Shown piece after piece: positions 10,673 through 40,684 of a DNA stretch of 48,395 nucleotides. The stretch lies in the IMG/VR virus record IMGVR_UViG_3300027971_000071, positions 1-48,395 of that record. The stretch is one strand, 5' to 3'. The stretch's first letter is position 1; every line of letters starts with the position of its first letter. A program made the position numbers and the translations under genes. Source of the DNA: a virus. The notes under the pieces were generated by a model. The model saw nothing but the letters and a program-made list of their open reading frames with translations. It was not told the DNA's origin and searched no databases.

Positions 10673-11145
10673 TAGTAACCTACAACAAGCATATTAGAAA
10701 CGCATTGTACACTTTTAACGCCAGACGATCCTGATCCTCCACCAATAACATCAAAGATACTGGTAGTTACATCAACAGCCCCTCTTGGCTCGGCATAAAC
10801 AAAAGAATACAAACCCCTGCTTTTTATAAATACTTCCTGGTCCACAGTCAAACCTTGTGTCACTATTGGGTTTGATATAGAAAAAGTGCTTGGGGTTCCT
10901 GTTGTACCAGGATCAACTACAGTTCCTGATCCAGCAACTTCATCATCATGCAAAGACAATCCATTTTTGGTTGCTGCTATTGCAGTCCACCCATAAACAA
11001 AAAGAGCATCACTGCCACTCGGTGTTATTTCTCTAGACTGTGTAATGCGTACATGTATTAAAGAAATTTCGGAAGAATCTAAAAATAAACTATCACCAAC
11101 TTGCCCTAAAGATAATCCAGTCTGATTTGTTGATTCAAGCTTCAT
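10672..11145 (-). CDS. Putative virion protein
   Basis: 157 residues. The N-terminal two thirds is beta-rich, and a Gly-Ser linker (GGGSGSSG) leads to the end. ATG overlaps the upstream stop (ATGA) with AGGAGGG upstream. No family is recognised. It is the first of the five-gene structural run transcribed leftward. Confidence 0.6.
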   Translation of the reverse strand: MKLESTNQTGLSLGQVGDSLFLDSSEISLIHVRITQSREITPSGSDALFVYGWTAIAATKNGLSLHDDEVAGSGTVVDPGTTGTPSTFSISNPIVTQGLTVDQEVFIKSRGLYSFVYAEPRGAVDVTTSIFDVIGGGSGSSGVKSVQCVSNMLVVGY

Positions 11146-11744
11146 CGTGCCCTCCTATGTCCACCAGGAATGTATCGTGCATCAAATTTGATGGTAGGGG
11201 CCTCGCACACTTGCTTCTGCGGAGTTCCTCCGTACACATCGACTCGCTCGCTCATTTCCAAAATCAATTTGTCCGCAATAGCATCCAATGCGTCGTGTAC
11301 AAAATACGAATCCTCGCCTATAGCCTCCGCAATTGCTTTAAGCGTGAATCCATACACATATCTACACACCATTATATAGCCTTCAATTGGCGTTAGGACA
11401 CCAGAGTCCATCACTAAATCTTTTACACGATCCATTCCAGACATATGATCATTTGCTTTTAGATTCTTCCACCGATTTTTGGATATTTGAAACTCCAAAT
11501 TAGAGCTTGGTATTCTCTTCATTTCTTCCATAACTAAAACTGGAATAGTTGATTCAAAATACCAACTATTGCTTCCCAGCATCTTGTCCATGACACTGTC
11601 AAACATCCTGTCATAAACATCATCAACATTGCCTTCAATATTTGCGGTGGACAGATACGATTTCACTCTGTCCATGACGACCACAAACAAGTCCCAGTCT
11701 TCTTGCAGGGGCTTGTTATAAATGTGCTGTGTTAACCACCCCAT
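11142..11744 (-). CDS. Putative HTH DNA-binding protein (sigma region 4-like)
   Basis: 200 residues. I chose ATG 11744, giving a 13-base overlap with the polymerase stop; a longer frame to 11828 runs inside the polymerase gene. Residues of about 130-175 (LTPIEGYIMVCRYVYGFTLK, then AIAEAIGEDSYFVHDALDAI) look like the helix-turn-helix of a sigma region 4 or LuxR type. No clear region 2 is seen. It may regulate transcription; this rests on one motif. Confidence 0.5.
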   Translation of the reverse strand: MGWLTQHIYNKPLQEDWDLFVVVMDRVKSYLSTANIEGNVDDVYDRMFDSVMDKMLGSNSWYFESTIPVLVMEEMKRIPSSNLEFQISKNRWKNLKANDHMSGMDRVKDLVMDSGVLTPIEGYIMVCRYVYGFTLKAIAEAIGEDSYFVHDALDAIADKLILEMSERVDVYGGTPQKQVCEAPTIKFDARYIPGGHRRAR

Positions 11745-13498
11745 GATTTTCCCACACCTGCTTCCACTTCGCAAGGGACAGTTCCCAATAATGGTTGCAT
11801 TGCATTCACCATAATTGTTTTTAGCCACTCTGCTACGCTATCAGCCTGAACCGTAGGGCACATAAGGACAATTTCATCGTGAACAGGCATGAGCATGGTC
11901 ATCTCAGGCCAATCGTTCCTCTTGCTCCACACCTCAGACAAAGCTTTCTTCATACCATCTGCGGAATTGGATTGAATCGGAGTATTACACTTCTTGGTGA
12001 ACTGCTCCTGCCACTTCCAATTTCCCCAACGGTCCAGCTTCAGCTTAGGCCCCATGCCTCCCCGTGTCCTACCCCATTTGGTCCGAAAAATCAATTTACC
12101 AGGTTGTTTCATTTTTGCATGATATCGCTTTAGGCCTGGGTAGGTCTGGAAAAACTGCTTGCGCATTTCTTGCAAGTCTTCCAATGGAAGCAGTATACCC
12201 CAGTTCTTTGCCAGCGTTGTCCGCAGCGTTTTTGCTCCACAGCCATAGATCAAACCGAAGTTCAATGCTTTCGCCAGGGTGCGATCCTCCTTGGTGGGAC
12301 GATCTTTCCCGAGGACATCCTTGGCCGTCTTGGTATGCAGATCTACACCATTACGAAATGCCTCTTGCATATTTGTTTCCTTTGCCACCCAGGCAATCAT
12401 TCTCAGCTCAATGGCCGAATAGTCGGCTTTGACAATTGAGAAGCCTACAGGGGCAACAAACGCCTTCCTATGACTGCCTCTAGGAATCTGTTGCAGATTC
12501 GGAGAATTACAGGAAAACCTTCCGGTCTCTGGTCTACATTGCATAAACTCAGCATGGACTTTGGCATCCGCTCCAATATGTGCCAACCATTCTGGCCCAA
12601 AAGTTTTGATGATCTGGTCTGCCTTACGCCACTCCATGATCTTAGACACAAAATCATTGTCTGTGTGCATACACAATTCATCTTTGCTGGTAGACTTCAA
12701 TGTCAAACCAATCCGACTGGCGGCAGCTTTAATATCCCAGTGCTTTCTCCAATTCCATGGTGTGTTGATAAATGTCCTGGGAGGAACCATTTCCTGTAAT
12801 TCAGAATTCAATCGAGTTCTACGCTTGACCGCTGCATTGTACAAAGAGATCCATTTATTTTTGTCAACATTTACTCCGTTCAGCCTCATCCAGATGGTAG
12901 CCTTGAGAACTTTGTGTTCCAGCCTCCAAATGGTCCTAAGATTATTCTTGGCAATCTCTCTATACAGAATCCTGTGGAGATCTAATAAGACAGCCGTATC
13001 CTTGGCGGCATACTCCAGTTGCGCCAAGGAAAGTTCTCCTGACCAATCTGACTTCTGGAGAACTTTGTCTACTTCAATTCCCATTCGGTCATACAAGACC
13101 GATCCCAAAGAGTTTGATACACCGAATCCGCAATTCAGCAGGAAGCTTCCAATGAAGGTATCCCTCAGTGAATTTGCTGCGAAATCAAATCCATATTGAA
13201 TCAGGAACGGTGCATCAAATGCCCAGTTGTGGGCGACTATCACTTTACGCCTTAAGGACTGAATGAGACTGGACGGATCCACCTGGTCACAATCAATCAC
13301 CCACGGATTTTCTCCGTCTACGCACAGGCTTAACAGCCTCATCCGGCTTGTGTGAAATGGCTTTAGTCCCGTTGTCTCCGTGTCCAACGCCAACAAATCC
13401 ACGCCTTGTAGCACAGATTGGACAGACATTAACTGAGAATGATTGGTCACTAGCGTGAAATTTGTAGGAGCCACACCAACTGATGCCGCATGAAACAT
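11732..13498 (-). CDS. Family A DNA polymerase (Pol I-type) with 3'-5' exonuclease
   Basis: 588 residues. Exonuclease motifs: D39 and E41 in LDTETTG, D95 in HNWAFDAPF, Y163 and D167 in YAAKDTAVL, so proofreading looks intact. Polymerase motif A VKADYSAIELR has D359; motif B has R406, K410, F414 and Y418; motif C PVHDEIVL has H540-D541-E542. There is no 5'-nuclease domain, as usual in phage enzymes. F414 matches the Phe of E. coli Pol I. ATG 13498 is preceded at 4 bases by GGAGGA; ATG 13510 has no site. Replicates the phage genome. Confidence 0.95.
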   Translation of the reverse strand: MFHAASVGVAPTNFTLVTNHSQLMSVQSVLQGVDLLALDTETTGLKPFHTSRMRLLSLCVDGENPWVIDCDQVDPSSLIQSLRRKVIVAHNWAFDAPFLIQYGFDFAANSLRDTFIGSFLLNCGFGVSNSLGSVLYDRMGIEVDKVLQKSDWSGELSLAQLEYAAKDTAVLLDLHRILYREIAKNNLRTIWRLEHKVLKATIWMRLNGVNVDKNKWISLYNAAVKRRTRLNSELQEMVPPRTFINTPWNWRKHWDIKAAASRIGLTLKSTSKDELCMHTDNDFVSKIMEWRKADQIIKTFGPEWLAHIGADAKVHAEFMQCRPETGRFSCNSPNLQQIPRGSHRKAFVAPVGFSIVKADYSAIELRMIAWVAKETNMQEAFRNGVDLHTKTAKDVLGKDRPTKEDRTLAKALNFGLIYGCGAKTLRTTLAKNWGILLPLEDLQEMRKQFFQTYPGLKRYHAKMKQPGKLIFRTKWGRTRGGMGPKLKLDRWGNWKWQEQFTKKCNTPIQSNSADGMKKALSEVWSKRNDWPEMTMLMPVHDEIVLMCPTVQADSVAEWLKTIMVNAMQPLLGTVPCEVEAGVGKSWGG

Positions 13499-14356: not shown

Positions 14357-14395
14357 AAATAATAAAAGCCTGGGCTTGTTTCCAAGCACCAGGCT
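14357..14395 (-). terminator. Rho-independent terminator, leftward
   Basis: On the minus strand a 12-bp stem (AGCCTGG and GCTTG arms, one bulge) with GAAA loop is followed by a T-rich run (TTTTATTATTT). It ends any transcript coming through the structured region 14396-14800. Confidence 0.85.
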
Positions 14396-17515: not shown

Positions 17516-17550
17516 ATAAAAAGGCCCCGGTAGTTTCCTACCGGGGAGCC
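17516..17550 (-). terminator. Rho-independent terminator, leftward
   Basis: Minus strand: 9-bp stem (CCCCGGTAG / CTACCGGGG) with GAAA loop, then CC and a TTTTTA run. It follows the Sak4-like ATPase gene. Confidence 0.85.
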
Positions 17551-22137: not shown

Positions 22138-22237
22138 CCTCTTCTCCCTCTCGACTGGTGCGCTCCAATTTGCACATGGAGTCGATGACCAGCCATATTG
22201 CCACAACAACCCATACAAACAAAGGGATGTCATTCAT
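22130..22237 (-). CDS. 35-residue single-span membrane protein
   Basis: MNDIPLFVWVVVAIWLVIDS is a clear membrane span, then a charged tail (KLERTSREGEEDE). AGGAG lies 6 bases before the ATG; the start overlaps the sigma-like gene stop and its TGA overlaps the next ATG, so it tiles exactly. Function unknown; small membrane proteins of this kind can be lysis or host-interference factors. Confidence 0.6.
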   Translation of the reverse strand: MNDIPLFVWVVVAIWLVIDSMCKLERTSREGEEDE

Positions 22238-22730
22238 CAGGATCTCCTATGTGTTGTTTAATCTTGATTAGTGCTTTTCGACAAATAAATGCAATTCTGC
22301 TTTTAGACATTCCGAGTTCTTTTGCAATCTCCCGGAACGGTTTGTGATTATAAAACCATTCCAGTACAATCTTTTTTTCTTTGGCTTCCAAATTTTTGTC
22401 GATAAATTCGGAAATTTTGTCGTACAGCATAATGTCAGGGGTTTCGGGAAGATATTCAACTTTATGGTCGTAATAGTCATTTACGAACACTAATTGCTCA
22501 GGCTTCCACATATTCTTCCTGGCTTCCATTACCGCAAACCGTACGGTGGTAAAAATCCAGGTAGACAGTTTACCTTTCTCTGGATTGAATGACTTGGCCT
22601 GCGCCATCAGTCGCATCCAAACATGCTGACCCATGTCGGATTTGATTTGGTTTTCTGTTAGTTTGTTTGCATGCATTGCCTTGTACACAAGGCCGATGTT
22701 TTGACTAATCAATTCACTAGTGGCAATCAT
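22230..22730 (-). CDS. Sigma-70 family-like protein (second of three)
   Basis: 166 residues. Region 2-like segment: VWMRLMAQAKSFNPEKGKLS then TWIFTTVRFAVMEARK (the GKLSTWIFTTVR signature). Region 4 helix-turn-helix: FREIAKELGMSKSRIAFI. ATG 22730 follows AAAGGA by 5 bases and overlaps the upstream stop by 14 bases. It would guide RNA polymerase to phage promoters. Confidence 0.75.
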   Translation of the reverse strand: MIATSELISQNIGLVYKAMHANKLTENQIKSDMGQHVWMRLMAQAKSFNPEKGKLSTWIFTTVRFAVMEARKNMWKPEQLVFVNDYYDHKVEYLPETPDIMLYDKISEFIDKNLEAKEKKIVLEWFYNHKPFREIAKELGMSKSRIAFICRKALIKIKQHIGDPDE

Positions 22731-23274
22731 TGAATTCCTTTCTTCGCTCCTCGACCAAGTAATCAACACAGTACTTGACTGCGGAAAATACACTGCCCTT
22801 AGGCATACTCATTGTCTTGGATACATCCAACTGAGTGTATCCGTCCAGAATCAACCTCATCACCTGGCGTTTGTCCCTTGGAAGATTCCAAAGTTTTTTC
22901 CTTACCCATTGCATCATGAACTCAATGTCAAGCTTGGTATCGACCACATCGGTGGCCATACCGAAGGACTCAATTTCCACCAGCGAAACCTGGTTCCGTT
23001 CATAAAGCTTTTGTTTTGAGAATTTGGCTCTTAGTGCCGAGGCACTTTGGAAAATCGCAGACTTACCTATAAAAGTAGAGTCTTTGATGTCAGGGCATTT
23101 ATGCCTGTTTCTTACCCAGTTGCATAGGCACAAAACCAATGCATCTTGTTGTGTGTCATGGTCATACTTGACCATTTGTGCTCTGGCCACTTTGTGGACT
23201 TTATCTACTCGATCCCTTTCCTCGTCGGTTAGCGGTCGAATATTGGTCCGTCTGTTCACTTTCACTAAACTCAT
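22717..23274 (-). CDS. Sigma-70 family-like protein (first in this pair)
   Basis: 185 residues. A degenerate region 2-like part (DIKDSTFIGKSAIFQSASAL) and region 4 block LPRDKRQVMRLILDGYTQLD then VSKTMSMPKGSVFSAVKYCV. AGGA lies 6 bases before the ATG. Followed at once by the second sigma-like gene, so the two may form a pair or a two-part factor. Confidence 0.65.
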   Translation of the reverse strand: MSLVKVNRRTNIRPLTDEERDRVDKVHKVARAQMVKYDHDTQQDALVLCLCNWVRNRHKCPDIKDSTFIGKSAIFQSASALRAKFSKQKLYERNQVSLVEIESFGMATDVVDTKLDIEFMMQWVRKKLWNLPRDKRQVMRLILDGYTQLDVSKTMSMPKGSVFSAVKYCVDYLVEERRKEFNDCH

Positions 23275-24072: not shown

Positions 24073-24381
24073 CTACGCATCCTCTGAAAAATCATTCTCA
24101 AGAACTTCTGTTATTTTTGGCAGTAGATCCCACAGCCAAGCATCTTCAGGAGTCCGCCGATAATATTGAACCTCCCTGTGATGTTCCAATTCCAGTTTCA
24201 CAGCCAAGAGCAAAACACGAAGGCTTGTGGCCTTTATTCGCCACTCCGATGCCCGTTTTGTGGAATAGATGAATTGTTCAAACCAAATGTCATCCATATC
24301 TTCATCTTCCGTTGGCTCCACCGGTACATTTCGCTGAGGATCCAGCCCTAGCGCAGATCGCAATAGTTCCCACATTCTCAT
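24073..24381 (-). CDS. Hypothetical small protein
   Basis: 102 residues. ATG 24381 overlaps the sigma-like gene stop (TAATG) and has GCAGGAG upstream; the longer frame to 24561 is inside that gene. Acidic and helical (EPTEDEDMDDIWFEQFIYS). No family is recognised. Confidence 0.55.
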   Translation of the reverse strand: MRMWELLRSALGLDPQRNVPVEPTEDEDMDDIWFEQFIYSTKRASEWRIKATSLRVLLLAVKLELEHHREVQYYRRTPEDAWLWDLLPKITEVLENDFSEDA

Positions 24382-24920
24382 TACTCCTGCAATGCGTCCA
24401 GCGTCACGCCGGACAAGAAAAACCGTAGGCTTTCTAACCCACGCCGTTTCAGAACACCAACCCGTGCCTCGGAGATCCCGAGGTAGGCAGCAATCTGTAT
24501 GTTGGTCCGATCCTGAACATAAAACATGTCCAGTATTGTCCTCATCCTCGGTTCCAGGCACTGTACTGCCTCGGACAGTTGACTAAAAACTATGGATCTG
24601 TCCAAACTTTCTAGCTGATCCTGTTCCGGTTCCGGGGCTGGCTTGTCCAAATCAAAGAGAACGGCCTGAATTTGCGTTCTGGCCGACTTTTTCTTGTAAT
24701 TCGACGCAAGACCCATCAAGGCCAGTTTTGCGCTCTTATAGATAAATGTAGAGGGTTTGCTGCGGGATGGGTCGTAGTTATTGGAAAACATCCGGAGGAT
24801 TCTGACAGCCAGGTCCTGGACATCATCCTCGGTGAGGTTCAGAGCCCACCCCTTCCTGGCACGGTTTGCCCGGTAGATGGCGGAGTATATCAGCTCATGA
24901 TCCAATGCTTCAGGACTCAT
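24381..24920 (-). CDS. Sigma-70 family-like protein (third)
   Basis: 179 residues. Region 2: LTEDDVQDLAVRILRMFSNN, then YDPSRSKPSTFIYKSAKLAL; region 4: TNIQIAAYLGISEARVGVLK. ATG 24920 has AGGTGA at a suitable distance; earlier ATG/GTG codons do not. It precedes the other two in the leftward operon. The three differ well in sequence, so they are not recent duplicates. Confidence 0.75.
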   Translation of the reverse strand: MSPEALDHELIYSAIYRANRARKGWALNLTEDDVQDLAVRILRMFSNNYDPSRSKPSTFIYKSAKLALMGLASNYKKKSARTQIQAVLFDLDKPAPEPEQDQLESLDRSIVFSQLSEAVQCLEPRMRTILDMFYVQDRTNIQIAAYLGISEARVGVLKRRGLESLRFFLSGVTLDALQE

Positions 24921-25005
24921 CGTCATCACCTACCAGCCACAGGGACACCCATGAAATAAGGGCCACCAGCAGTAAGCCGGTGGCCCATGCGATCACATCA
25001 CGCAT
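24910..25005 (-). CDS. 31-residue single-span membrane protein
   Basis: MRDVIAWATGLLLVALISWV is hydrophobic and the end is acidic (GDDDES). ATG 25005 overlaps the upstream stop, GAGG lies 8 bases before it, and its TGA overlaps the sigma-like gene. Small membrane protein of unknown role. Confidence 0.55.
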   Translation of the reverse strand: MRDVIAWATGLLLVALISWVSLWLVGDDDES

Positions 25006-25495: not shown

Positions 25496-25522
25496 CCACA
25501 TCCTTTCACTCGCATCACACAA

Positions 25523-25539
25523 AGGGAAACCGTTTCCCT
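25523..25539. promoter_or_regulatory. Operator-like perfect dyad at early leftward promoter
   Basis: AGGGAAAC-C-GTTTCCCT, 8-bp arms with one central base, lies at the expected start of the leftward transcript. Shares the core AAACGGTTT with a second dyad at 31297-31311. Likely repressor site; the repressor is unknown. Confidence 0.5.
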
Positions 25540-25544
25540 CGCAC

Positions 25545-25574
25545 TATCTAATCATCTTTCCCGGATGGTGTCAA
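25545..25574 (-). promoter_or_regulatory. Leftward early promoter
   Basis: Minus strand has TTGACA (25574-25569), an 18-bp spacer and TAGATA (25550-25545). The -35 is perfect, the -10 weak (3 of 6). It sits between the structured element copy and the first gene of the leftward operon. Confidence 0.6.
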
Positions 25575-25615: not shown

Positions 25616-25717
25616 ACTAGTTGGTTCCTCGACAAATCTCGGATGACCTCGATTTGTCTCGTCACAGCCGCCGTGAGGCGGCGATAAGTAGGAGTCGTCG
25701 TCGACAGGCTCCTAGAC
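25616..25717 (-). repeat. Twin structured element, left copy (102 bases)
   Basis: The minus strand matches 32480-32581 in equal length. Shared blocks: GTCTAGGAGC, CGACGACGAC, GTGACGA, AAATCGAGGTCATCCGAG, GAGGAACC and TAGT. The stem GACAAATC/GATTTGTC here is AGTAAATC/GATTTACT in the other copy: three base pairs changed, all compensated. A second hairpin (GCCGCC-TCAC-GGCGGC) lies at the same place as CATCGCC-TAC-GGCGATG there. A further short hairpin (CGACA/TGTCG) is at 25724-25738. It may act as RNA leader, replication origin or module end. Confidence 0.7.
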
Positions 25718-25753
25718 TCGTTTCGACATAAGGTGTCGTAACATAAACTAAAA

Positions 25754-25990
25754 TTACATTTTCGTAATGTTAGTCTGGGTAATCAGATGCCGATCCTTGG
25801 CAATGTTCGCCCCCATTTCGCTGGCGAATCGTACCGCCTCCGTGAACTGGGTGAATACAGCCAGGCGGCGACCGGTCTGGCCGTTGAATCCGGCTCGACA
25901 GGTCCAGCTCTGTCCATTGTCCTCGGTTTCAATTTCTACTGCGTCCATGGTCTTCCCCGGGGTAGTGAGTCTATACAGATGCCGTTTCAT
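25754..25990 (-). CDS. Small hypothetical protein in GC-rich region
   Basis: 78 residues from ATG 25990 with GAGGA five bases upstream. Beta-rich (VEIETEDNGQSWTCRAGFNG) then a helix (FTEAVRFASEMGANIA). It is the last gene of the GC-rich minus-strand set. No family is recognised. Confidence 0.55.
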   Translation of the reverse strand: MKRHLYRLTTPGKTMDAVEIETEDNGQSWTCRAGFNGQTGRRLAVFTQFTEAVRFASEMGANIAKDRHLITQTNITKM

Positions 25991-27822: not shown

Positions 27823-28028
27823 TACCGCCCAGGCCGTTCGATCTGCAACCGGCGCAGAGCCTCCAGGCGTTCACCCTCAAATGTCAATTCCTCGAGTTGT
27901 CGTATCTCCGGATCCCTCCGGTCCCGAGTAGGCCCGAGACCGCCCAGGATGATCCACATACACACCGCCACCACCACCCCGAGGATACTCAGACTCCCCG
28001 GGGCAAATAGATCCCAATTTTTAACCAC
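27822..28028 (-). CDS. Single-span membrane protein
   Basis: 68 residues from GTG 28028. Span ILGVVVAVCMWIILGGLG near residue 15-32, then a charged helix (RQLEELTFEGERLEALRRLQ). Architecture like small phage membrane proteins. The GTG has only a weak ribosome site. Confidence 0.5.
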   Translation of the reverse strand: MVKNWDLFAPGSLSILGVVVAVCMWIILGGLGPTRDRRDPEIRQLEELTFEGERLEALRRLQIERPGR

Positions 28029-28038
28029 GATACCCCCA

Positions 28039-28176
28039 TCACCTTAAAACATGGGTAACCCCTATCTGGGTAGGCCCATTGGAATAGAACACCGTCACCA
28101 CCGTTTCCGTATGGCGACAGCCTACCAGGCCCAGGGCAAAAACGCCCAGGGCAGCACGCAAAAGCATCCTTGCCAT
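28039..28176 (-). CDS. 45-residue lipoprotein
   Basis: MARMLLRAALGVFALGLVGC is a classic lipoprotein signal peptide: basic n-region, hydrophobic h-region and lipobox LVGC with Cys at 20. The mature part is only 25 residues. AGGGGG six bases before the ATG. Would be anchored in a host membrane; possible superinfection exclusion factor, but that is inference. Confidence 0.6.
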   Translation of the reverse strand: MARMLLRAALGVFALGLVGCRHTETVVTVFYSNGPTQIGVTHVLR

Positions 28177-28186
28177 TTTATACCCC

Positions 28187-28429
28187 CTATCGTCCTACGG
28201 TTCCACCCATAACATGGTGGTACAGTTCCCGATTCTGTTTGTGCAAGTCCCGACAGACAATCTGGAAAATCAGTTGATGCTTGGAAGACATCGACTCCCA
28301 GGCACCCGCAGCTAGGCGACTTTTGGCATAATCGATGACCGAATCCAGAGAATCGGCGACATGGCACCGCCCGACAATCTGCCGCAGGATCGGCCGCAAC
28401 CCGTCTGCAATTTGCGAATCTGAAGGCAT
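28187..28429 (-). CDS. Small hypothetical protein
   Basis: 80 residues from ATG 28429; a G-rich site lies upstream. All helical (SVIDYAKSRLAAGAWESMSS). The frame is open further upstream but looks non-coding there. No family is recognised. Confidence 0.55.
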   Translation of the reverse strand: MPSDSQIADGLRPILRQIVGRCHVADSLDSVIDYAKSRLAAGAWESMSSKHQLIFQIVCRDLHKQNRELYHHVMGGTVGR

Positions 28430-28519
28430 AACAACCCCCCCACCACCCGGGAGACAATCCCAGGGGAAACCACGAAACCGCACACCCCCGGAGACCACCC
28501 CCGAGGGAACCAAACAACC

Positions 28520-28553
28520 AGGGAGCCAGGGAGCCAGGAGCCAGGAGCCGAAC
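28520..28553. repeat. Short tandem repeat GGAGCCA-type
   Basis: Four near-identical units of 7-8 bases (GGGAGCCA twice, GGAGCCA then GGAGCC) inside the 134-base gap between two genes. No ORF of note there. Confidence 0.6.
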
Positions 28554-28563
28554 GACCGCCCGC

Positions 28564-29286
28564 TTAGACCATGGCGAGGGACAAACGGGCCTTGGCAACG
28601 GCCGAACCATGCGCAGGAATCCAGATATTCGACTTTGAGCCGGAACACAACCGGCAGTCAAGGCACGAACGACCCCGACTTTCGGCAACGCAGAGGACAC
28701 CCAACCCGGTGAGCGATTCCGCCCCGTTGAACGACTCCAGAGAGCCAGGCAAGACAGTGAACGACCGCCAGCCAGCCGCATGGGCAACGGATGCCTCGTG
28801 CGCATTATCGCACGAGGCCTGCAGCAGGCCGAGGTAATCGGCACCGATGCCCCGCCATGCATGGGTGTAACCCGTATGCCCACCGGAACAGAGCCGGAGG
28901 ACCTCACGCCAAGCGGAGGGAGGGACGGCCGCCGGGTCGCCATATGACCCCAAGCGAATGGCACGACCGGAAAACAGAGGCCCATGGGCGACCGGATCGA
29001 ACACCGGATAAATTCCCCGTTTGAAACCCCTCCACACGGCCGCAGGAGCCTTCCCCACTTGCACATAGCAGCCACGGCCGCCCCGAAACCGGCAAGTGCC
29101 GCATACCGCCCCATCCCGACCACGACGGACAGCCCGGGAAGGATGAACCCGGGAACGGAGAATCCAGGTTTGGATCATGTTTCCCGTTTTGCCATTTTTA
29201 CTTGAAAAGGTCGCCACCACCACAATAGGAGAGCCATCGAACCGAGACGGCCCACGATAAAGAATCACGCCCGGAATTTTCGCCAC
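28564..29286 (-). CDS. DUF7227 family protein
   Basis: 240 residues from GTG 29286 with GAGGT six bases upstream. Typical block order: KTGNMIQTWILR, AVCGTCRFRGGRGCYVQVGK, AVWRGFKRGIYP, GRAIRLGSYGDPAAVPP, HAWRG and a C-terminal Cys cluster CLDCRLCSG. Conserved Cys suggest metal binding. The family is widespread in phages and its function is unknown. Confidence 0.8.
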   Translation of the reverse strand: MAKIPGVILYRGPSRFDGSPIVVVATFSSKNGKTGNMIQTWILRSRVHPSRAVRRGRDGAVCGTCRFRGGRGCYVQVGKAPAAVWRGFKRGIYPVFDPVAHGPLFSGRAIRLGSYGDPAAVPPSAWREVLRLCSGGHTGYTHAWRGIGADYLGLLQASCDNAHEASVAHAAGWRSFTVLPGSLESFNGAESLTGLGVLCVAESRGRSCLDCRLCSGSKSNIWIPAHGSAVAKARLSLAMV

Positions 29287-29312
29287 AATCACACCTCACA
29301 ATCACACACACA

Positions 29313-29344
29313 CGAAAAAAAAAACAACCGGCCCAAATGCCGAT
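29313..29344 (-). terminator. Rho-independent terminator, leftward
   Basis: Minus strand: six-base-pair stem (ATCGGC/GCCGGT with one wobble) and six-base loop, then TTG and a run of ten T (29315-29324). Follows the gene at 29395-29607. Confidence 0.65.
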
Positions 29345-29394
29345 TCACCCATCCCCCCACCAATGGCGAGGGGACGGATAAGCGGCACCGGGAA

Positions 29395-29607
29395 CTAATC
29401 CATCCAAAATTTGGTAAATGACACCGAACAAGGTTCGCTGGCATTGTATACGGATGGAGCGATTGACCCCATTGTTTTCGCAGTGTACATTGCGTCGCCG
29501 AGACCTGCAGGAAGAAACCGGGAAATATACGATACCGTGCCGTATTCCCCGTTATCATTTTCCCTGAAATCCAAAAACCGAACAGACACCCGATACATGA
29601 TATTCAC
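29395..29607 (-). CDS. Small hypothetical protein
   Basis: 70 residues. Start GTG 29607 with GAGGG seven bases upstream; ATG 29598 is the alternative. Beta-rich (YRVSVRFLDFRENDNGEYG). First gene of the leftward GC-rich set, with a promoter candidate upstream. No family is recognised. Confidence 0.5.
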   Translation of the reverse strand: MNIMYRVSVRFLDFRENDNGEYGTVSYISRFLPAGLGDAMYTAKTMGSIAPSVYNASEPCSVSFTKFWMD

Positions 29608-29815
29608 TTTCTAGCCCTCACAATCACACACGAACCCGGGGAATCACGCCCCCGTAGGGATACTATTACATTTCGGATGAGGAAACGCAAGCCCTGCAGC
29701 AAAAAAAAATATTTTTGTTTTTGTTGGATTGACTGGACTTGCACCCAGGAGAAACCCGAGTAATATATTAGCAGTGAGGCAGGCAGTGAAAAGTGAACGA
29801 AAGGAAACGAAGACA
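29608..29815. promoter_or_regulatory. Divergent promoter region
   Basis: 208 bases with no gene between leftward and rightward sets. Plus strand: TTGCAC, 16-bp spacer, TAATAT. Minus strand: TTGCGT, 16-bp spacer, TAATAG. An A9-plus-T-rich stretch lies near 29701-29720. Promoters are moderate matches only. Confidence 0.4.
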
Positions 29816-29968
29816 ATGTACCAGCTTATTTTGAATTTTACCGAATCCCAGGTAATCGAATACTATGAGTACCTAAAAGACGCAGAATGGACCGCAAACT
29901 ATGCAAAAAACTTGCACGGTCTAGCGTTTATTGGTGCCCAAATTAATTTTATCGAATGGTCGAACTAG
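29816..29968 (+). CDS. Small hypothetical protein
   Basis: 50 residues, MYQLILNFTESQVIEYYEYL and an end in NFIEWSN. AAAGGA lies 10 bases before the ATG. A longer frame upstream has no good site. First of four small rightward genes. Confidence 0.5.
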   Translation: MYQLILNFTESQVIEYYEYLKDAEWTANYAKNLHGLAFIGAQINFIEWSN

Positions 29969-29999
29969 CCAACCCCAACCAAACCAGAAAAGGAAAACG

Positions 30000-30185
30000 A
30001 TCATAAGCAAATACAGGATTGACTACATTAGCTGCACCCCAGATGGAATAGCTGAACAGCATACCATCTATCACCCCCGGACTTTGACCCTACGGGGCTT
30101 GAAATTGGTCCTAAAGGGACTTGGTAAGGAAATGCACTCCAAGAATTTGGAGCGCATCGGCGGACAGTGGAAGCTTGAACGATAA
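30000..30185 (+). CDS. Small hypothetical protein with non-standard start
   Basis: About 61 residues: YRIDYISCTPDGIAEQHTIY then a basic helix (RGLKLVLKGLGKEMHSKNLE). No ATG, GTG or TTG follows AAAAGGA at 29988-29994; the first well-spaced codons are ATC 30000 and ATA 30003. The frame is open back to TTG 29931 inside the previous gene. An ATC/ATA start is odd, so the true start is uncertain. Confidence 0.4.
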   Translation: MISKYRIDYISCTPDGIAEQHTIYHPRTLTLRGLKLVLKGLGKEMHSKNLERIGGQWKLER

Positions 30186-30208
30186 CCCAACTAGGAAAGG
30201 ATCGAACC

Positions 30209-30433
30209 ATGGAAACCACCAGCATTGAAACAGTTTGGACAGTCGGCTATATCCACCATACCGGGCATTTTAACGCTCTAACCGATACATGCACCAGCTA
30301 TGACCGAGCATTGACCCATTTTTACGAAATCAAGCACACAAGGCCAGAATATGGCGAGCTATTGATCAGAGAAAAAACCGAAACGACCACAACCCGATAC
30401 GCAAACCGTACCCCACAGGAAAACGACCGATGA
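30209..30433 (+). CDS. Small hypothetical protein
   Basis: 74 residues, VWTVGYIHHTGHFNALTDTC then YDRALTHFYEIKHTRPEYG. AAAGGA seven bases before ATG. Overlaps the next gene as ATGA. No family is recognised. Confidence 0.55.
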   Translation: METTSIETVWTVGYIHHTGHFNALTDTCTSYDRALTHFYEIKHTRPEYGELLIREKTETTTTRYANRTPQENDR

Positions 30434-30615
30434 GCAAAAGAAACCTGTACCGCATCGCCGAAGCAATGCACCAAACCCAGGCGGACCACTTGCAGGAAAT
30501 CCGCCAGGCTCTTTGGGCACAAGCCATCGCAGCAGCCCACACGGCCACAGAATACCGCCGTTGGCTGCTTGACGAGGGACCATGGGAAGAGGGCGACGAC
30601 GCAATCACATTTTGA
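30430..30615 (+). CDS. Small hypothetical protein
   Basis: 61 residues, fully helical (IAEAMHQTQADHLQEIRQAL), ending in acidic WEEGDDAITF. Last gene of the short rightward set, followed by a terminator at 30645-30672. Confidence 0.55.
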   Translation: MSKRNLYRIAEAMHQTQADHLQEIRQALWAQAIAAAHTATEYRRWLLDEGPWEEGDDAITF

Positions 30616-30644
30616 GCCGCACGGCCGGACAACCTGAAGCACGC

Positions 30645-30672
30645 AACCCGGAGGAAACACCCCCGGGTTTTT
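30645..30672 (+). terminator. Rho-independent terminator, rightward
   Basis: Stem AACCCGG/CCGGGTT with 11-base loop and a T5 run, 30 bases after the preceding stop codon. Confidence 0.75.
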
Positions 30673-31187
30673 CGTTGGTTGGCACCAACACCAGGGAAGG
30701 TAACCGGCAGGGGACCGGACCCCAACAATGAGGGACGGCCGGGAAGGGGAAGGGGAAGTAACGGAGAGGGGAGGGGCGATTGACCGGTGGAGGGGTAAGC
30801 AGGAAGGCACCCCCAGACCAGCAAACAGCCCCGGCTGACTCCGGTTCCACATGGTCAGCCCGCCTCACACTTCCCACCACCCGCACGCCCGCCCCGGCTG
30901 AAGGCATCGACCCCAACCAGCCGCCTACCTGGCCACCACCCGCCTGACCGGACACCCTGCAGCCAGACACCAGGCACCGGACACCGGACACCGTACCGGA
31001 CTGGACCGGATGACATGCCAGCCACCTGGACACGATGACACGGCCAAACCACGGCCGGAGAGCTCAGGACCACGATAATTGGGAGAGTAATGGGCCGGAA
31101 TCGAGGCCGAAACGACCAAAAAACGACCGAAAAACAGGGGACCCAAATCCTATGGAATAAGAACGAACCACTATAGCTGAGACATAG

Positions 31188-32400: not shown

Positions 32401-32417
32401 AAGGCTTTACAAGCCTT
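32401..32417. promoter_or_regulatory. Perfect dyad, operator-like
   Basis: AAGGCTT-TAC-AAGCCTT between the leftward promoter and the twin element. Possible regulator site. Confidence 0.35.
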
Positions 32418-32479
32418 ACAAAAATGTAATGAGGACAGATTAGCATTTTCAGACTTACATTACATTGTAAAAAACAGTT

Positions 32480-32581
32480 GTCTAGGAGCTTGCGACGACG
32501 ACAAGTCATACAACATCGCCTACGGCGATGAGTGACGAAGTAAATCGAGGTCATCCGAGATTTACTGAGGAACCCTTTAGT
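32480..32581 (+). repeat. Twin structured element, right copy (102 bases)
   Basis: Plus-strand partner of 25616-25717, here directly upstream of the gene at 32614. Hairpin CATCGCC-TAC-GGCGATG, then GTGACGA, then the 8-bp stem AGTAAATC/GATTTACT with the conserved loop GAGGTCATCCGA, then GAGGAACC. A short hairpin at 32455-32470 (TTACA/TGTAA) precedes it, as in the left copy. Stop of the element lies 32 bases before the ATG, so it would be in the mRNA leader. Confidence 0.7.
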
Positions 32582-32613
32582 TGTCCTTAGATTGATTCTC
32601 GAAGGAAAGTGAC

Positions 32614-33261
32614 ATGCCGAGGAAAAGAAAACTTTCTCCGAAACTTGTTCCTGGAAAGGATCCAAAACAATTGGCCCAGATCATGGCCATTAAATCCAGA
32701 TCGTTTGGCAAAAACAAGTTGGAGTATATTCCAGCGACATATGAGAGCCAAGGCCTGATCGGCCTGCGCAAATATGCGGATAACTGGTATGGTCGTTACC
32801 AGAAGAATCAGAATGTGGCCAATGTTTGGCGATACAAGAAAGATTTCATGGTTTGGTATTCCAAGAATCCAAGACCAGGGAATTGCCATCTTGTGCTGTG
32901 TGACCCGTCCAAGAAAGCTTCGCCGGACAATGTGAAATATGTCAGCGAGGAATTTTCGGAGATGAGGCGAGGGGTTCGAAGGATAGGGTCCATCTATTTC
33001 TTCGTTCAATACGATCCTGGCTTTGTTGGGTTGCCAGGTCAATGGCGTGGACGAGTACGGATCAGCGGACAGTACGCAGAGAAACCGTATTATGTGTATC
33101 GTGAGTTTGATTCTGAGAAACTGGCTGCAAGGTGGGCGGATTGGGTGCTGGAAAAGAAGTATGGCATCTATGCTGTATTCAATCGGGATATTGACCCAAG
33201 TCTTGGCCGTCAGGACTTTGATGACATACCGTTGGAACTATACGGGGGATATGACTCATGA
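32614..33261 (+). CDS. Hypothetical protein, possible AP2-like DNA-binding fold
   Basis: 215 residues, very basic N-terminus (MPRKRKLSPKLVPGKD). The part GQWRGRVRISGQYAEKPYYV then YREFDSEKLAARWADWVLEK resembles the beta-beta-beta-alpha shape of AP2 domains, though the match is weak. GAAGGAAAG precedes the ATG. It opens the rightward operon behind the twin element. It overlaps the next gene as ATGA. DNA binding is inferred. Confidence 0.5.
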   Translation: MPRKRKLSPKLVPGKDPKQLAQIMAIKSRSFGKNKLEYIPATYESQGLIGLRKYADNWYGRYQKNQNVANVWRYKKDFMVWYSKNPRPGNCHLVLCDPSKKASPDNVKYVSEEFSEMRRGVRRIGSIYFFVQYDPGFVGLPGQWRGRVRISGQYAEKPYYVYREFDSEKLAARWADWVLEKKYGIYAVFNRDIDPSLGRQDFDDIPLELYGGYDS

Positions 33262-35873: not shown

Positions 35874-37640
35874 ATGTTTGAAAAAGTCTGGGAAGCATTG
35901 GGTTGGAAAGGAAAGTTGCCACAGAATCCTGGGCACAAAGTTGTGAAGGAGAGCTGGGGGTATCCGTACTACCCCTCGGAGCTTCAAGGCGATGCCTTCA
36001 TGGTGGGGACCAACCAATACAATGCTATTGGTTATGCGTCTTGGGGCATAAACAACCCGATTGACCGTGCGTATGGTGCAGATTATCCATTTGTTCGTAA
36101 TGAGCAGGACTTGGGTAGGATTAGGAATTCCAGTCGGTTTTGTTATCGTACGAACCCAAATGCAAATGGTGTCGTAGAAACTATGATCAGTTATGTCATC
36201 GGAAATGGGTTTATGGCCCATTTCTCTAGCGAAGATGACCCGGAAGGTGCGGCACAATGCCAGGAATTTGTCAATAACTGGTATGAGATTTCAGACTTTG
36301 TCTCGGTTCAAGAAGAGATTTTTAGGCGTAGTCGGTATGACGGTGAAGTATTTGTGCGAATGTTTAATCAGGAAGATGGCAATCTAAAATTGCGGATGGT
36401 GGAGCCTGAGTTAGTAACACAACCAGCAGGCACATCGTTTCCTGAATGGGGATTTGGTATCCAGACGGATCCCTCGGATTCGCAGACTGTGTATGCATAC
36501 AATGTCAAATACAATAATGAGACGGGCACGGCTGTAACTGACAATATTATCAATGCAAAAGATATTGTTCATTTGAAAACAAATGTTACTGCTGCCATGA
36601 AGCGTGGAATTTCCGACTTTACATTTTCTACGCTGGAAATGTTCAATCTCGCATTGAAACTTACAAGGAATGTCGGTGAAGGCTCTGCAATCCAAGCGGC
36701 AATTGCTGCGATTAGAGAGCATGAAGGTGTAACCGCAGACCAAATTGACGATTTCCTGGATACGCAGAAAAGTGGATATCCGTATTCTCAAGGTATCCCA
36801 GGAAATATGCTTCCCAGCGCATTTTCTGGGTATTCTACGGTGACACCTGGTGCTGTATTGGACATGACCAACAACACCAAGTATGTTGAGCCTCCTGGCG
36901 GAAAGAATGTTGGTGCGCATCTGGAAGTTCTTCAAGCTGTGCTTCGTGCTGCTGGCATGAAGTTTTCTGCGCCAGAATGGCTGGTTAGTGGCCGTGCAGA
37001 TTCAATGTCATTCGCTTCGTCGTTGACTGCGGAAAGCCCGTTTTTGCGTTCTGCTGTTCGTATGCAACGAACATACCAGAAATGCTTCAAGCAGATTGTC
37101 ATTCGAGCTTTGGACAACGCTGCTTTAGCGGAATTAGTCCCACTTGATTGGAAAAAAACCATCAAGCTGGAAATTTCGGCTCCATCTATGGAGATCCGAG
37201 ACAAAGGTGCAGAGGCAAGGGCAAATCGGGAATACATGGACATGGGGATCAAGTCCAAGAAGACGATCACCAGCGAAATTGGATTGGATTATGCCAAAGA
37301 ATTGGAAAACAGACGCAGAGAGGCGATAGAAGATCCACATCCTTCATCTGCGATGGAAGGTCAAGTAATTCCTGGAAAACCAGGACAGCCTGCTGAGATT
37401 AAATCTCCAGCCTCTGAATTGGCCCCAGGGGATCCTGAGACAAACACTCCTCAGATCGGAGGATCTGGAGAAGACGATGGTAAAAAAAAACGGAGTAAAT
37501 TAGAAGGTGTCACTTTTGACAAGTCCAAGCAAAAATGGAAAGCGGAAATACACGAAGGATCTGTCACACGACACATAGGATATTTTAGAACTTCAACTCA
37601 GGCACATAATGCCTACCTGAATGTTGCGCCAAAGAAGTAA
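35874..37640 (+). CDS. Portal protein fused to C-terminal AP2-like domain
   Basis: 588 residues. The first 480 form a portal (for example YVIGNGFMAHF, EIFRRSRYDGEVFVRMFNQE, AAIREHEGV, VLQAVLRAAGMKFSAPEWLV). After a Pro/Gly-rich linker, residues 537-588 (KLEGVTFDKSKQKWKAEIHE then HIGYFRTSTQAHNAYL) match the AP2 DNA-binding pattern: G-V-x-x-D-x-x-x-x-K-W-x-A-x-I, then IGYF-x-T-x-x-x-A-x-x-AY. A9 run at 37482-37490 just before it. Forms the DNA entry vertex; the AP2 tail is unusual. Confidence 0.85.
   Translation: MFEKVWEALGWKGKLPQNPGHKVVKESWGYPYYPSELQGDAFMVGTNQYNAIGYASWGINNPIDRAYGADYPFVRNEQDLGRIRNSSRFCYRTNPNANGVVETMISYVIGNGFMAHFSSEDDPEGAAQCQEFVNNWYEISDFVSVQEEIFRRSRYDGEVFVRMFNQEDGNLKLRMVEPELVTQPAGTSFPEWGFGIQTDPSDSQTVYAYNVKYNNETGTAVTDNIINAKDIVHLKTNVTAAMKRGISDFTFSTLEMFNLALKLTRNVGEGSAIQAAIAAIREHEGVTADQIDDFLDTQKSGYPYSQGIPGNMLPSAFSGYSTVTPGAVLDMTNNTKYVEPPGGKNVGAHLEVLQAVLRAAGMKFSAPEWLVSGRADSMSFASSLTAESPFLRSAVRMQRTYQKCFKQIVIRALDNAALAELVPLDWKKTIKLEISAPSMEIRDKGAEARANREYMDMGIKSKKTITSEIGLDYAKELENRRREAIEDPHPSSAMEGQVIPGKPGQPAEIKSPASELAPGDPETNTPQIGGSGEDDGKKKRSKLEGVTFDKSKQKWKAEIHEGSVTRHIGYFRTSTQAHNAYLNVAPKK
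37482..37490 (+). other. A9 homopolymer, possible slippage site
   Basis: Nine A in frame as three AAA codons at the portal/AP2 junction. A -1 slip leads to stop TAA (37496-37498), a +1 slip to stop TAG (37501-37503). Either would yield a portal without the AP2 tail. Confidence 0.45.
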
Positions 37641-40639: not shown

Positions 40640-40684
40640 CAGTAGTAAATGTCTGACCCTGGGAGGCAAGGACTTCCCAGGGTC
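40627..40684 (+). terminator. Tandem hairpins after capsid gene
   Basis: First: TACTACTG-CATAA-CAGTAGTA (40627-40647), with the stop codon in its loop. Second: GACCCTGGGA/TCCCAGGGTC (40655-40684), 10-bp stem, followed by TGTTTGT. May attenuate or stabilise the capsid mRNA. Confidence 0.55.

Follow-up and report, generated by a model that had tools for sequence, protein, structure and literature searches.

The 48,395-nt stretch of viral DNA analyzed here (IMG/VR record IMGVR_UViG_3300027971_000071, hereafter called the window) carries two inverted copies, R and L, of what we regard with high confidence as a conserved structured element, probably a folded RNA, that has not been described before. 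The copies head the two diverging operons of the phage and share three helices (P1, P2 and P3) followed by a GGAACC tail. This conserved fold suggests a signal for the host transcription machinery to keep going, and we give an even chance to the reading that it is a cis-acting leader RNA causing RNA polymerase to read through terminators. More tentatively, the element may represent a new, polymerase-directed class of antiterminator RNA, recognizable by a hairpin with a TAGGAGC-N3-4-CGACGAC loop, that is placed at the head of the packaging operon in several unrelated phage groups (at least one of them probably infecting Planctomycetota) and is duplicated for the replication operon in one genus-like group.

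Two copies of one fold

The R copy (32478..32574, plus strand; P1-P2-P3-GGAACC) forms the leader of orfR1-orfR2-TerS-TerL, and the L copy (25623..25719, minus strand) lies 5′ of orfL1, the sigma-like genes and the replication block. They scored 98.6 and 93.6 bits, respectively, with a covariance model that itself included both copies. A preliminary description of this DNA had reported equal lengths for the segments 32480-32581 on the plus strand and 25717-25616 on the minus strand; both are 102 nt long with the sequences as described, and we revised the limits of the element to 32478-32574 (+) and 25719-25623 (-). The last 50 bases likewise proved identical at 41 places, and three compensated pairs of an 8-bp stem account for six of the nine differences. 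A blastn comparison of R with L within the window gave E = 1.4e-13, thereby excluding the chance similarity that the description had allowed for. The R copy folded better than 200 of 200 shuffled sequences (z -3.3), and the result for the L copy was less clear (z -1.9). In a 96%-identical relative (contig L133), the region 32421-32618 showed zero changes, compared with 10 changes in the 116 bases just upstream.

P1 reads TTGTC - TAGGAGCTTGCGACGAC - GACAA in R (32478..32504, +) and GAGTC - TAGGAGCCTGTCGACGAC - GACTC in L (25692..25719, -), so that the short hairpin already noticed in front of both copies additionally covaries. The P1 stems of the element are TTGTC/GACAA, GAGTC/GACTC, AAGTC/GACTT, TGATC/GATCA, TTGGT/ACCAA and GGTTA/TAACC. 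Across 10 phage sequences the P1 stem covaries, and the TAGGAGC-N3-4-CGACGAC loop is almost fixed. P2 is a GC-rich hairpin, CATCGCC TAC GGCGATG in R (32514..32530, +) and CGCCGCC TCAC GGCGGCT in L (25666..25683, -; outermost pair unformed), which is kept with different sequence, as had been pointed out, 4 of its 7 pairs being changed on both sides. P3 follows a GTGACGA linker (with variants) and comprises 7-8 bp and then GA-NN-loop-NN-GA, in which the tandem GA mismatch is retained: AGTAAATC ga-GG-tcat-CC-ga GATTTACT in R (32539..32566, +) and GACAAATC ga-GG-tcat-CC-ga GATTTGTC in L (25631..25658, -). The compensation described for this 8-bp stem held, but the 12-base loop reported as invariant did not; it corresponds to GA-NN-N4-NN-GA, whose two inner pairs covary in relatives (GG/CC, GA/TC, AC/GT or GC/GC). 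The unpaired 3′ motif (R, 32569..32574, +; L, 25628-25623, -) is GGAACC in 6 of 7 copies and TGAACC in the seventh. Two other readings of the sequence were discarded. P1 and P3 contain GA pairs as a K-turn would, but lack a fitting three-base bulge, and the open frames that overlap the copies on the opposite strand are missing from relatives, indicating that the element is not coding.

Copies in related phages and covariation

In two related phages with approximately 74% terminase identity, G300 and L220, both copies recur at corresponding positions and face outward, as expected of one signal for two operons; the preliminary observation that each copy heads an operon and faces it therefore extends to relatives. 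In G300 (IMGVR 3300046777_001138; terminase 74% identical to that of the window), the R copy (L189 9043-8944) precedes orfR1-orfR2-TerS-TerL and the L copy (L189 16973-17077) precedes the orfL1/sigma block. The L220 contig holds both copies, at 3839-3735 (-) and 11647-11750 (+). The gene directly downstream varies (orfR1, an HNH-like ORF in G300, orfL1, and a 208-aa ORF in G300), which argues that the element serves the operon rather than one gene. The HNH-like ORF (169 aa; L189 8338-8847, -) lies between the R element and orfR1 and by eye resembles an HNH homing endonuclease.

A pattern search on the P1 loop matched L215, L218, L220 and L221, which are close kin of one another. A covariance model built from the four window and G300 copies only (R1) scored these new copies at 58.8 to 67.1 bits (E 2.4e-11 to 3e-13), and since they had no part in building it, their scores constitute independent support. 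Alignment A8 contains seven distinct copies; of its 22 base pairs, 15 are altered on both sides, and pairing is kept in 98% of cells. None of 500 shuffles reached any of five measures, and shifting the partner by one base reduced pairing to 35-42%. A8 was fitted to a model whose four starting rows were hand-padded with N, a few inserted linker bases being omitted from the G300 rows, and the stems quoted above are readable directly in the sequences, independently of that alignment. Covarying homologues 5′ of phage operons, the check proposed in the preliminary description, were thus obtained, in agreement with its view that the conserved folding marks a functional RNA or folded single-stranded DNA.

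Between these two, sequence alone does not decide. Among the 150 paired cells of A8 there are no G-U pairs (three cells are A-G mismatches), which is unusual for RNA, and this total lack is unexplained and keeps the single-stranded DNA reading alive, whether as an origin, a primosome-type site or a hairpin promoter. GC-GNA-GC tips form very stable DNA minihairpins, and P1 has such tips in the other phage groups described below; together with the missing G-U pairs they leave the folded-DNA reading some weight. We nevertheless consider it improbable, because copies placed before terminase genes in four phage groups are unlike origins, in G300 a strong sigma70-like promoter lies immediately upstream, the wider P1 set holds one G-U and one U-G pair, and an N4-type virion polymerase was not recognized among the proteins scanned. 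The replication origin suggested earlier was also not borne out, as the related copies with enough context all precede operons and the R type always stands before terminase genes. The same applies to the suggested end of a module: genes follow directly downstream, and in the clearest case a promoter lies just upstream.

Searches against known families

No Rfam 15 family was reached at curated thresholds with the whole window, the leader alone or six relatives; the window gave no match at E up to 1, and the leader alone gave a single insignificant one. Blastn of the leader against named phages gave no match, and no description of the element was found in a literature search that had most subscription journals outside its reach. 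The covariance model found no match in 392 Planctomycetota genomes, and the P1 pattern found one in the same genomes, without a convincing stem. An exact pattern, TCGAGGTCATCCGAGA, hit 13 viral and 117 genome stretches, which among those read were chance matches except for the window's kin.

A degenerate pattern of the window's capsid protein retrieved 25 viral contigs, mostly true capsid relatives, and a profile scan with the capsid alignment, using a poorly chosen peptide, returned known kin only. In the stretches examined from the clades with 53% and 60% capsid identity, the model did not find the element. The approximately 60% clade has a different leader before its packaging operon (L192 1600-1860; reverse of L194 around 3190), namely TTGACG-17-TATTAT followed by about 170 mostly unchanged noncoding bases that contain a compensated hairpin (ACAGG/CCTGT vs GTAAG/CTTAC).

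The P1 hairpin in other phage groups

When the search was widened to the P1 loop without its closing pair, real P1 stems were found in four groups: that of the window, L219/L225, L217/L226 and L234. In the ten sequences, 5 of 5 inner pairs change on both sides and 94% of cells are paired; all ten have the loop TAGGAG...CGACGAC, a constancy for which the search pattern itself is partly responsible. In each of the other three groups the hairpin is followed on its own strand by a terminase gene, namely TerL in L234 (E 3e-59), a weak TerL match in L226 (E 1.6e-7), and TerS in L225 and L219. The terminases of these P1-bearing phages belong to different families, and P1 with other stem sequences before such genes points to a shared host partner rather than to the terminase; the near-fixed loop would offer a direct route to that partner. 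With model R2, L225 and L234 scored 21-22 bits (E 0.03-0.04), too weak to claim the whole fold. In L219 (~3075-2780) and L225 (~3470-3180), both on the minus strand, hairpins that otherwise diverge are surrounded by two shared conserved blocks, CAAACCGACAGTGAA and GTTGAGAGTGAnCnACnGATAGTGA, a pattern that suggests an RNA larger than P1 alone. Pattern matches in L222, L227-L231 and L235 lay within open frames without good stems and were rejected, and L232, also in open frames though with a partly paired stem, was set aside as doubtful.

The distance to the terminase genes is 0.5-3.1 kb for every R-type and P1-only copy, as would be expected of a packaging (pac/cos) element. This explanation is very improbable, considering that three phages have a second copy before the replication block, that compensated stem changes are useless for recognition of double-stranded DNA, and that the motif is common to phages with different terminases. 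The sharing of P1 across terminase families also bears on a nut-like RNA, which would act in cis by the same antitermination but with a phage protein (N-like, or an uncharacterized operon protein) as partner alongside host Nus factors. The placement of two copies at the heads of two operons recalls nutL/nutR, a fixed loop on a covarying stem is typical of protein sites, and orfR1 and orfL1 are uncharacterized; neither, however, has an RNA-binding or N-like match, and we judge such a protein-dependent signal unlikely.

Promoters, terminators and the genes downstream

The element appears to be promoter-proximal. In G300, 16 nt separate P1 of the R copy from the end of a sigma70-like promoter (GTGACA-17-TATAAT) that 0.4% of shuffles equalled; it is the only upstream promoter among the copies scanned that stands clearly above shuffles. 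Weaker -10-like hexamers occur 15-17 nt before P1 in the L copy of L220, the R copies of the window and L215, and the L copy of G300. Upstream of L there is a dyad, ACATTACGAAAATGTAAT (25753..25770, -), with an R counterpart at ~32416-32431 that is exact in the 96% relative; this dyad is possibly an operator or part of a promoter.

In both operons, the same gene junctions repeatedly carry intrinsic terminators whose sequences differ. In the left operon, the junctions shared by the window and G300 are the one following the AAA_24 gene and the one preceding the polymerase block; the window has terminators at 17525..17546 (-; same place in G300, other sequence) and, before the polymerase block, at 14368..14387 (-; same place in G300). 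In the right operon, a terminator-like hairpin after the capsid gene (40655..40684, +) has the same place in G300 and L215. The total number of terminator-like sites was close to the shuffled expectation in most stretches, so that the argument rests on conserved position, not number. Near the start of the left operon, an attenuator-like hairpin, GAGGGAAACGGTTTCCCTTTG (25520..25540, -), lies just before orfL1, with hairpins in the same place in L220 and G300, and a strong terminator-like hairpin (24960..24986, -) directly follows orfL1.

A second promoter-like site, TTGACA-17/18-TTAGAT/TAGATA (25545..25574, -; conserved in L220), lies between the L copy and orfL1, and some early transcripts from it would lack the element. 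Its presence in the window and L220 counts against antitermination, as does the possibility that internal promoters circumvent the internal terminators or that these terminators set dosage. The site may allow two modes, in which transcripts either stop at the hairpin before orfL1 or read through it.

These arrangements also bear on a leader RNA that controls how the first gene is translated or how stable its mRNA is, such as a 5′ stabilizing structure or a repressor site. Hairpins near the 5′ start of a message stabilize RNA, and the R copy stands ~26-39 nt before the orfR1 start in the window and L215. Such a role is nonetheless quite unlikely, since the downstream gene is not conserved, the promoter-like site and hairpin separate L from orfL1, and the loop is invariant beyond the needs of mere stability.

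Proposed mechanism and comparison with known systems

An effect on RNA polymerase is the best explanation for one RNA that heads two operons, is indifferent to the first gene, keeps a fixed loop across phages with differing terminases and has terminators downstream; of the three roles proposed in the preliminary description, leader RNA fits. We propose that transcription would begin a few bases upstream of P1, so that each of the two main transcripts of the phage would open with a cis-acting structured RNA. The nascent RNA would fold into P1, P2 and P3 with the unpaired GGAACC tail, and the near-fixed P1 loop, probably together with the GA-bearing tip of P3, would be recognized and bound by a partner that several phage groups have in common, with host RNA polymerase or a Nus-type factor as the most likely candidates. 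The polymerase thus modified would then pass intrinsic terminators in the replication operon via L and in the packaging/structural operon via R.

The closest comparison is with HK022 put, a pair of similar ~70-nt RNAs that lie downstream of PL and PR and by themselves suppress both pausing and termination through contact with the beta-prime zinc-binding domain (PMC9378689). Like putL/putR, the element occurs as two similar folded RNAs per phage, heading two diverging operons (in the window, G300 and L220) with terminators downstream. Unlike put, which has two stem-loops, it is ~97-105 nt long with three helices, stands before the packaging operon in addition to the replication operon, and its host is probably a member of the Planctomycetota. 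A cmsearch of HK022 25-36 kb with the element model gave a best score of 7.8 bits (E 1.3). Given the three helices and this lack of a match, we propose that the element would act in the manner of put while being unrelated to it in sequence, and do not classify it as put. Lambda nutL/nutR (boxA-boxB with N protein) are likewise paired cis RNA signals with a fixed loop and a variable hairpin stem, but the element has three helices; an N-like protein had no match among the window proteins scanned, N-type proteins being fast to diverge. The LoaP dual-hairpin site, compared by description rather than by model, is similarly a multi-hairpin leader RNA of long operons, and no LoaP/NusG-like gene was seen among the window proteins scanned.

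Should the element prove to antiterminate, it would extend control RNAs that need no protein, or only host factors, beyond the lambdoid coliphages, and would govern the replication and late operons alike in a phylum whose phages are little studied. Should its function be another, it nonetheless represents a new family of covarying RNAs, not contained in Rfam, whose members mark the heads of operons in uncultured phages.

Host and other features of the genome

Of 294 Planctomycetota genomes, 14 contained distant capsid relatives, against 0 of 293 genomes from the phylum of a Roseovarius control, which makes a planctomycete the probable host of the window phage. A comparison of this kind with the candidate capsid protein of L234 gave 1 of 284 against 0 of 289 genomes. 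Among the proteins of the left operon, two are clearly sigma-70-like (Sigma70_r2/r4) and two more weakly so (22230-22793, 24381-24929, 22717-23274 and 11142-11828, all on the minus strand); the phage may bring its own promoter specificity. The C-terminal part of the portal protein (35874-37640; residues ~536-583) matches HNH-endonuclease families. Between the two copies, the region 28000-31000 is unlike the remaining genome, with high G+C, a strong AT skew (up to 0.37) and few convincing genes.
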